This document shows, piece by piece, positions 19,585-21,535 of a stretch of DNA of 34,881 nucleotides. Where the stretch lies: positions 1 to 34,881 of the forward strand of contig CANGLD010000004.1 in assembly GCA_947454475.1 (NCBI GenBank). Direction: 5' to 3'. Under the pieces are notes generated by a model that saw only the letters and a program-made list of their open reading frames with translations, was not told the DNA's origin and searched no databases. Every line of letters begins with the position of its first letter. Position 1 is the first letter of the stretch. This stretch comes from Oxalobacteraceae bacterium. Lineage in GTDB: Bacteria > Pseudomonadota > Gammaproteobacteria > Burkholderiales > Burkholderiaceae_D. Both the position numbers and the translations under genes were made by a program.

Positions 19585-20550
19585 TTACTTCAACCATCCT
19601 CTGTATCTGAAATACCAAAATGGCGTGATTGCACTTGCTAACATCAGCAATAAAGCAAACGGATAACCCCAACTCCAATCTAATTCCGGCAACCAGCGGA
19701 AATTCATGCCATAAATACTAGCAATCAAAGTAGGTGGCAAAAACGCGACCGATGCGACAGAAAATATTTTAATAATTTTATTCTGATTAATATTAATGAA
19801 ACCTACAGTTGCATCCATTAAGAAGTTAATCTTATCGAATAAAAAAGCAGTGTGTCCATCAAGTGATTCAATGTCACGCAAAATCTGTCGTGCATCATCA
19901 AATTGATCTGCGTTTAATAAACGACCCCGCATCATGAAACTTACTGCACGACGTGTATCCATCATGTTGCGTCGTATACGACCATTCAAATCTTCTTCAC
20001 GCGCCATGGCATTCAGTAATTCAGCCGCATCTTGGTCACTAATGTCTTTCTGTAAAACGCTATGACTGACATCTTCAAGATTTTGATAAATGCCTTCCAA
20101 CGCATCTGCAGAATATTCCACATCCGTTGCATATAAATCTAACAGCACATCTTTGAAGTCACCAATGGAACCGGGACGTGATCGTGCACGCATACGCACC
20201 AAACGAAAGACTGGCAAATCATCGTTATGCATAGAAAACAATAAATTCTTAGCCAGTATGAATGCAACTGTCACCACACGTGATTTATCGTCTTCAACCT
20301 CTAGCAAGAAGTCTGAGCGCAAATGCAAATCGCCATTATCTGCTTCGTAATAGCGTGCAGACGCTTCGATGTCTTTTACTTCATCTTCATCCGGTAAGGT
20401 CACGCCGTAAATACTACGTACCCAATCACGCTCTTCATCGGTAGGATCAGTTAAGTCAACCCAAATAGGCGCAGCGCGCTCAAGATCGGATCTGGTCTCA
20501 ATATTGACCTGACTGAGTCGTCCGCCTTGCAATACAAATACATTAATCAT
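19585..20550 (-). CDS. corA: CorA-family magnesium/cobalt transporter
   Basis: MINVFVLQGG start, C-terminal signature SIYGMNFRWLPELDWSWGYPFALLLM (GMN motif) and a second C-terminal TM segment. Confidence 0.94.
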   Translation of the reverse strand: MINVFVLQGGRLSQVNIETRSDLERAAPIWVDLTDPTDEERDWVRSIYGVTLPDEDEVKDIEASARYYEADNGDLHLRSDFLLEVEDDKSRVVTVAFILAKNLLFSMHNDDLPVFRLVRMRARSRPGSIGDFKDVLLDLYATDVEYSADALEGIYQNLEDVSHSVLQKDISDQDAAELLNAMAREEDLNGRIRRNMMDTRRAVSFMMRGRLLNADQFDDARQILRDIESLDGHTAFLFDKINFLMDATVGFININQNKIIKIFSVASVAFLPPTLIASIYGMNFRWLPELDWSWGYPFALLLMLASAITPFWYFRYRGWLK

Positions 20551-20780
20551 GGGCTCTCCTGACCGTAACGAGTACGGTTTGAACTGCGCAAATTTATTTG
20601 CAGTTGATTATTTTCAGGGGGCGCAGCAACTTAGCTACATGCGCCTACTCACCATGCAAAGTGAGAGGCGCCCAAGAACTACATGAGGAGGGAGGAGCTC
20701 TCACCGAGGTCGCTGTAAGACGACTGGTGATGGTATAAGGGACTACCCAAGTGGGGTCTCCGGTAACAAAAACAGCGCAA
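20551..20780 (-). ncRNA. candidate structured 5' leader RNA of corA (cis-regulatory; family not identified)
   Basis: Inverted repeats in the corA upstream region: GCGCCT-A-CTCAC/GTGAG-AGGCGC (20641-20671), TCACC..GTCG/CGAC..GGTGA (20701-20730), ACCGTA/TACGGT (20562-20578), AACT/AGTT plus GCAAA/TTTGC (20582-20605), plus alternative pairings of the GGCGC segments. No RNA search or folding was run. Confidence 0.5.
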
Positions 20781-20845
20781 GTTTACTTTCATAGAGAGGA
20801 TGAGGCAAGCAAGAATAGAAACAAACAGCCTTGTATGACCAACTC

Positions 20846-21535
20846 TTACGGCAAATCGGCACTATTCATACGCTGCATGATCAACGCAGTGCGACGATTC
20901 AGATAATTAGAATCTAAATGTCGACCAAAATAGCGTGGATTAGGCAGCATCACAGCCAACCGCGCCGCTTCCTGAGGACCTAGTGCTGCTGCAGGCACAC
21001 CAAAATAACGACGCGCTGCGGCTTCAGCACCAAATACGCCATTCCCCCACTCCACTACATTCAAATAAATTTCGAATATGCGTTGTTTATCCATCATTAT
21101 TTCAAGCATGAAAGTAATCATCATCTCTTCTGCTTTACGCAAATAACTGCGCTCACCTGAAAGAAAAAGATTTTTTGCGAGCTGTTGAGTGATGGTTGAT
21201 CCACCCGACACAATCTTGCCTTTTTTCGCGTTCTTTACATAGGCCTTTTGTAAAGCATCCCAATCCACACCTTCATGCTCTGCAAAATTTGCATCTTCTG
21301 ACGCAATAATGGCGCGCTTAAGATTATTTGAAATACGATTGTAGGGAACCCACTGATGCTGCAATTTTATTTCAGGTTTTTTTTCTTGCAAGCGCTCTAA
21401 TTGAGTTCGCATAAATGAGGTGGAGGTTGGATTGTGATCCACCCACCACCATATATGCAGCAAATACCAAAACTGCACTAAGACTACGAGTGCAACTGGA
21501 AAGCCTAAAACCAATAGAATAATTTTTTTCTTCAT
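20846..21535 (-). CDS. mtgA: monofunctional biosynthetic peptidoglycan transglycosylase
   Basis: AIIASEDANFAEHEGVDWDAL, GGSTITQQLAKNLFLSGERSYLRKAEE; N-terminal TM. Likely start MKKKIILLVLG (ATG 21535), overlapping the aroE stop (ATGA). Confidence 0.95.
   Translation of the reverse strand: MKKKIILLVLGFPVALVVLVQFWYLLHIWWWVDHNPTSTSFMRTQLERLQEKKPEIKLQHQWVPYNRISNNLKRAIIASEDANFAEHEGVDWDALQKAYVKNAKKGKIVSGGSTITQQLAKNLFLSGERSYLRKAEEMMITFMLEIMMDKQRIFEIYLNVVEWGNGVFGAEAAARRYFGVPAAALGPQEAARLAVMLPNPRYFGRHLDSNYLNRRTALIMQRMNSADLP

Follow-up and report, generated by a model that had tools for sequence, protein, structure and literature searches.

The corA gene in the window (the whole 34,881-nucleotide stretch of Oxalobacteraceae DNA analysed here) is preceded by a leader whose family is conserved and apparently undescribed; a search of the literature found no description of the element. 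We consider it fairly probable that this leader works as a leader-peptide attenuator that responds to Mg2+, akin to corL and mgtL but in a new order and before new genes. Judged from sequence comparison, relatives of the leader precede at least three unrelated Mg transporter gene families in Burkholderiales, and the element has the look of a common, so far undescribed device for magnesium control. Comparative analysis identifies a predicted promoter, conserved helices, two mutually exclusive pairings (antiP1 and P5), a constrained open reading frame (ORF) and sharing of the element with Mg2+ transport genes. Because relatives precede mgtA, nrmT and mgtC genes, the corA leader is very probably tied to Mg2+.

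The regulated gene is encoded on the minus strand at 19585-20550, with its ATG at 20550 (Pfam CorA, 4.1e-56; NCBIfam TIGR00383, above cutoff). The initial annotation had described four hairpins in its leader, and all were found on the minus strand where it had placed them: TCACC/GGTGA with GTCG/CGAC at 20730-20701, GCGCCT-CTCAC...GTGAG-T-AGGCGC at 20671-20641, AACTGC...GCAGTT at 20605-20582 and ACCGTA-CTCGT-TACGGT at 20578-20562. The Shine-Dalgarno sequence AGGAG (20560-20556) directly follows the last of these, ahead of the corA start codon. The fold of 20551-20780 has a predicted energy of -72.9 kcal/mol, versus -60.8 ± 4.4 kcal/mol for shuffled sequences (z -2.77, with 3 of 200 shuffles as good), and z is -1.65 for the complete 295-nt gap upstream of corA. 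Taken alone, the fold is only moderately unusual; the case for the leader is carried by conservation and covariation. The element is larger than 20551-20780, with a conserved promoter that extends to 20808.

Rfam covariance searches at the gathering cutoff gave no match in the window or in 12 corA-leader relatives. At permissive E-values, only chance matches were obtained for the stretch 20400-21000, and there was no match in four NRMT/permease-type and 12 order-wide loci. M-box (RF00380), yybP-ykoY (RF00080) and Mg_sensor (RF01056) were rejected, as none gave a covariance-model match in any of these searches. The initial annotation had suggested a metal-responsive or otherwise regulated leader, possibly of an undescribed family. 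This reading stands insofar as the leader is conserved, structured, absent from Rfam and in all probability linked to Mg2+; the kinship to M-box or yybP-ykoY RNAs does not. The block GGUGAGAGCUCCU, which had seemed slightly similar to the opening of the M-box, is this leader's version of GGCGAGAUAGCGCU; it contains the end of a leader peptide (final codons and stop region) together with the antiP1 5' strand. The initial annotation had overlooked the peptide, the alternative pairing and the start site, which is located at the element's 5' end. Like the M-box (ykoK), which precedes unrelated Mg2+ transporters including nrmT (PMC4072509), the element is one RNA family upstream of unrelated Mg2+ transporters, but the M-box fold is absent and the leaders here contain an ORF. 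The yybP-ykoY Mn2+ riboswitch is alike as a metal-transporter leader, whereas its genes and fold differ.

Among 146 genomes from the window's own bacterial family, 39 contain the conserved block by DNA search, and all 30 block loci that were fetched, including that of the window, are upstream of corA. Among named carriers, Oxalobacteraceae predominate (Noviherbaspirillum, Herminiimonas, Oxalicibacterium, Paucimonas, Lacisediminimonas); a Contendobacter record has a short block match only, with no corA behind it. A covariance model built from 30 corA leaders only (R1) matched in 72 of 394 family genomes. Inspection of the downstream genes placed all matches of at least 26 bits 213-282 nt before corA, bar one, a 31-bit match that precedes an NRAMP-family gene. 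Several weaker R1 matches also lie before or beside NRAMP-family transporter genes. Altogether, 65 Oxalobacteraceae corA leaders from 65 genomes carry the element. The studied leader (20694-20780, minus strand) scores 65.7 bits with R1, a value that is not independent because this leader (L002) is part of the R1 building alignment. It is the sole R1 match in its genome, indicating one copy, at corA; a search of the same genome with the broadened model R3 gave no match. Matches to R1 at approximately 19-22 bits (L064, L065, L066, L068, L133, L134, L137 and L082) were set aside as chance, being within genes or lacking a Mg2+ gene; two of them, L066 and L068, overlap loci later found with R3.

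A second model (R2), built from seven NRMT-type leaders, most of them at nrmT genes and none at corA, matched in 136 of 295 family genomes and independently recovered many corA leaders. Conversely, the corA-only R1 recovered leaders of nrmT loci. As the model of each class recovers members of the other, corA-type and mgtA/nrmT-type leaders are treated as one family; their P2-P3 regions differ. The order-wide search with R3 found matches in 35 of 330 Burkholderiales genomes, which represent many families and 26 of the 145 genera. Outside the order, nothing convincing was found in class-sampled genomes (274 searched with R2 and 56 with R3).

A -35 box (TTGCCT, 20803-20808, minus strand) and a -10 box (TAAACT, 20780-20785; TACACT in most relatives) are separated by 17 bp and were identified by direct reading and promoter scoring. 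The best -35/-10 pair occurs at the same place in 65 of 65 corA leaders, with a score of 7-8 out of 12, and random sites in the same loci mostly have no promoter site or a lower score. The distance from the end of the -10 box to the G of GUUUU is 6 nt in 63 of the 65 corA leaders and in 57 of 68 other leaders of the same bacterial family. From this spacing, the RNA is predicted to begin at a conserved sigma-70 start at about G20773. A start downstream of about 20580 would have left the hairpins outside the transcript; with the predicted start at G20773, they are transcribed. A CGCT stretch between the -10 box and the start (20775-20779) is strongly conserved in most corA leaders and probably untranscribed. 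The GCGCU stretch before GUUUU was at one stage assigned to helix P1, an assignment that was dropped, as the start site follows it and it does not covary. A GC-rich discriminator at 20775-20779 might add stringent control.

Covariation was evaluated by per-column simulation without covariation on a FastTree tree, using a G statistic and an RNAalifold-like score; the test was our own rather than R-scape, and its smallest possible per-helix p is 1/301. All helices are on the minus strand. Helix P2 (20740-20761) pairs GGA 20761-20759 with UCC 20742-20740 and ACCC 20757-20754 with GGGU 20748-20745, enclosing the Shine-Dalgarno sequence and start codon of the upstream ORF (uORF). It is almost invariant in corA leaders (94% of cells paired), where P1 and P2 vary too little to be informative; P1 is poorly supported there, and the ACCC/GGGU part of P2 covaries weakly in the order-wide set. 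Helix P3, within the uORF (20701-20730), covaries in corA leaders (p = 0.02) and in the wider family (p = 0.003). For the alternative helix antiP1 (20661-20704; GUGAGAG 20704-20698 with CUCUCAC 20667-20661), the corA leaders (GGCGAGA/UCUCGCC) give a summed G of 77.6 versus a null of 0.4 ± 10.7 (p = 0.003). Helix P5 (20641-20671), which excludes antiP1 and pairs GCGCCU/AGGCGC with CUCAC/GUGAG, has p = 0.003 in the wider family; in corA leaders it is 90% paired, with p of 0.09-0.2. In mgtA/nrmT-class leaders the complete structure scores 420 versus 3 ± 26 in the tree-aware test, with p = 0.003 each for P3, P4 and P5. A structure-naive order-wide alignment gives p = 0.003 for P3, antiP1 and P5 and p = 0.007 for P4.

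Nearer to corA, the small hairpin P6 (20623-20638; GUAGC/GCUGC, GGCC/GGCC in relatives) has p = 0.02 (RAF) and p = 0.11 (G), and hairpins P7 (20582-20605) and P8 (20562-20578, directly before the corA Shine-Dalgarno sequence) each have p = 0.003 in corA leaders. A candidate anti-Shine-Dalgarno sequence, GCGCCCCCUG (20615-20624), is the local form of a conserved GCGUUCCC and complements the corA Shine-Dalgarno region GGGAGAGC; 81% of cells can pair in corA leaders, where no covariation of this pairing was detected. A search of the corA leader for an intrinsic terminator-like site found none. Across corA orthologs the leaders are conserved, with covariation in P3, P7, P8 and antiP1.

Since antiP1 and P5 share nucleotides and both are conserved, a switch between two mutually exclusive leader structures is indicated, as in leaders of the corL/mgtL type. 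In the window, both helices are perfectly paired (GUGAGAG/CUCUCAC and GCGCCUCUCAC/GUGAG-U-AGGCGC). When corA leaders are folded with either antiP1 or P5 forced, the two states differ little in energy. Of 64 leaders, 36 have a more accessible corA Shine-Dalgarno sequence in the antiP1 state and none a less accessible one, the shift being small (mean 0.23 vs 0.14). These pairings bear on a quite improbable alternative, in which a PhoP-like regulator acts on promoter-proximal sequence, as a protein-bound DNA or RNA element, and the hairpins merely stabilise the mRNA. Conservation is highest between the -10 box and P2, where covariation is lacking in corA leaders, as this alternative would have it; however, P3, P4, P5 and antiP1 covary, two of them being mutually exclusive, and the conserved core runs far past the start site and contains the uORF.

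The uORF (20679-20750, minus strand) begins with UUG at 20750-20748, encodes 23 codons (MGSPLYHHQSSYSDLGESSSLLM) and ends with UAG at 20681-20679. Its Shine-Dalgarno sequence, GGAG (20758-20761, in helix P2), is near-invariant in the alignments. A short ORF with a Shine-Dalgarno sequence thus lies between the predicted start and a Mg2+ transporter gene, again as expected of the corL/mgtL type. The window copy is divergent, with a stop five codons past the usual place and a weak P1; in most relatives the uORF has 18 codons and encodes MGSPxxxxxPSxDGxxA(R/S). The layout consists of GGAG, a start codon usually 7-8 nt further on and a stop that closes an ORF of 12-28 codons. All 65 corA leaders use UUG as the start, and nearly all others use AUG or GUG; of the non-corA leaders matched, a single one has a first letter other than A, G or T (C). 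Typical peptides are MGSPFSSAQPSSDGQSAR (corA), MGTCSSDSCCQTRSGAASAR (mgtA) and MDSPSSRSCIGHTLAR (order-wide mgtA). In most leaders the stop is inside GGCRAGAUAR, which is the end of the antiP1 5' strand and adjoins P4. Because frame +1 is nearly as open as the uORF frame, openness alone is no evidence for the uORF. Codon-column permutation gave a peptide similarity of 2.23 for the corA ORFs versus 1.23 ± 0.24 when shuffled (0 of 200 shuffles reached it); the mgtA/nrmT class shows the effect weakly (9 of 200), and 11 order-level ORFs not at all. By this comparison, the leader ORFs before corA are constrained at the codon level.

Discovery of the leader ORF made a pure aptamer model less favoured. 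It is rather unlikely that P1-P3 form an aptamer that binds Mg2+ directly, with antiP1/P5 as the expression platform of a metal-binding riboswitch and the ORF incidental. A compact covarying fold from +1 would suit such an RNA, as would gene associations shared with the M-box (PMC4072509) and the P2-P3 core of the mgtA/nrmT class, which is near-invariant even at third codon positions, a conservation unneeded for the peptide alone. In corA leaders, however, the P2-P3 region is variable while codon structure is kept; the Shine-Dalgarno spacing is invariant, the start letter is confined to A, G and T apart from the single C, and TAA and TAG stops interchange, with replacement stops nearby. We give hardly any credence to attenuation of the amino-acid type, in which a Ser/Cys-rich or Pro-containing peptide would sense charged tRNA rather than Mg2+. 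The peptides are serine-rich, those of the mgtA/nrmT class also containing Cys and those of the corA class Pro, yet these residues vary between classes while the RNA switch is constant, and the genes concerned are those of Mg2+ transport, not amino-acid synthesis.

Downstream genes were tallied for 101 further loci, a set selected for its diversity rather than drawn at random. Among recognised genes, mgtA comes first in 47 loci, an OprB porin in 20, an ABC permease in nine, nrmT in eight, an unknown protein in seven (with mgtA or mgtC next in six of them), NicO in two, mgtC in one and another Nramp clade in one; six have none. The many OprB porins and the two NicO-like genes are not obviously Mg2+ genes and count against the attenuator reading. 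The NRMT proteins have the metal-site residues DDDPSG and GTTISP (DxxG and TxxS), close to the published signature DxxG-TxxA/T (PMC8806188).

Other loci have features of their own. The two NicO/RcnA nickel-cobalt transporter relatives (L228, L230) fit a pure Mg2+ regulon poorly. A secreted-looking protein without a Pfam match (ARPMITDDARIVD...) is directly behind the element in L231, L235, L238, L247 and L252, mostly followed by mgtC or mgtA. One genome (G196) has five R2 matches, one of them a corA leader; two (L204, L205) are apparently identical copies before an OprB-porin and ABC-permease gene pair. The small plasmid NZ_AP021883.1 of Sulfuriferula nivalis (L279) carries the element with an annotated mgtA, adjoining a metal-sensing repressor and an antitoxin-like gene. 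In G002:C79, G025:C94, G163:C1 and G185:C366, nrmT is near corA and convergent with it, and these genomes have the corA leader. An Nramp clade whose first metal-site motif reads GDNDAGA occurs directly behind the element (L221) or, after an OprB porin, as the second gene (L213, L222, L226); Mg2+ is a possible substrate of this clade.

For the attenuator we infer that the peptide is translated and that Mg2+ is the signal, and also in which direction the switch works and at which step (termination or translation) it acts. Transcription would begin at about G20773, and the first ~100 nt would hold a weakly started (UUG) leader peptide with its Shine-Dalgarno sequence and start within P2 and its stop at or just beyond the antiP1 5' strand. 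When Mg2+ is plentiful, the ribosome would complete the peptide and cover this region, blocking antiP1 and allowing P5 to form. In the P5 state, corA expression would be low, via an exposed Rho-loading sequence and/or pairing of GCGUUCCC with the corA Shine-Dalgarno sequence. When Mg2+ is scarce, translation of the peptide would be slow or fail, antiP1 would replace P5 and corA would be expressed. That plentiful Mg2+ should mean low corA is proposed because E. coli corL behaves in this way.

In E. coli, translation of corL, which has a UUG start, lowers corA, and two leader structures matter; Rho is involved, and corA is up at low Mg2+ (PMC11552253). This ORF (ysgD, b4799) has 18 codons, begins with UUG and stops 151 nt upstream of corA. 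As here, corL of E. coli and Salmonella corA is a UUG leader ORF between promoter and corA, with two alternative structures and a hairpin that starts at the uORF stop. Anchored at the start codon, its start TGGACACACCCAGTAG matches TGGACAGTCCCAGTAG of a Burkholderiales mgtA leader at 14 of 16 nt, a match found at 4 of 25,902 background NTG sites (~1.5e-4 per site). The remainder of the peptide differs, and at the E. coli corA locus R1 gave background-level scores only and R3 no match. Homology of the Burkholderiales leaders to corL is, on this comparison, a lead. The mgtL leader of enterobacterial mgtA (RF01056) likewise combines a leader peptide and alternative RNA structures before a Mg2+ importer, but its Asp/Glu-Pro repeats are absent from the peptides here, and the present family is common to several transporter types.

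In enteric bacteria, mgtL and corL are known examples of Mg2+ uptake controlled by a leader peptide. We tentatively suggest, as a possibility that falls short of the probable, that all of these leaders, including enterobacterial corL, descend from one ancestral Mg2+-sensing peptide and switch, reused before CorA, MgtA, NRMT, OprB porins, ABC permeases and MgtC as a Mg2+ regulon of ribosome-sensing RNAs with no protein regulator. A family-wide relative before several transporter families in the Burkholderiales would make Mg2+ sensing by leader peptide old and general, and would allow substrates to be predicted for transporters not yet characterised (OprB-like porins, an ABC permease and the GDNDAGA Nramp clade). 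The family also offers many natural variants for studying how ribosomes may sense Mg2+.
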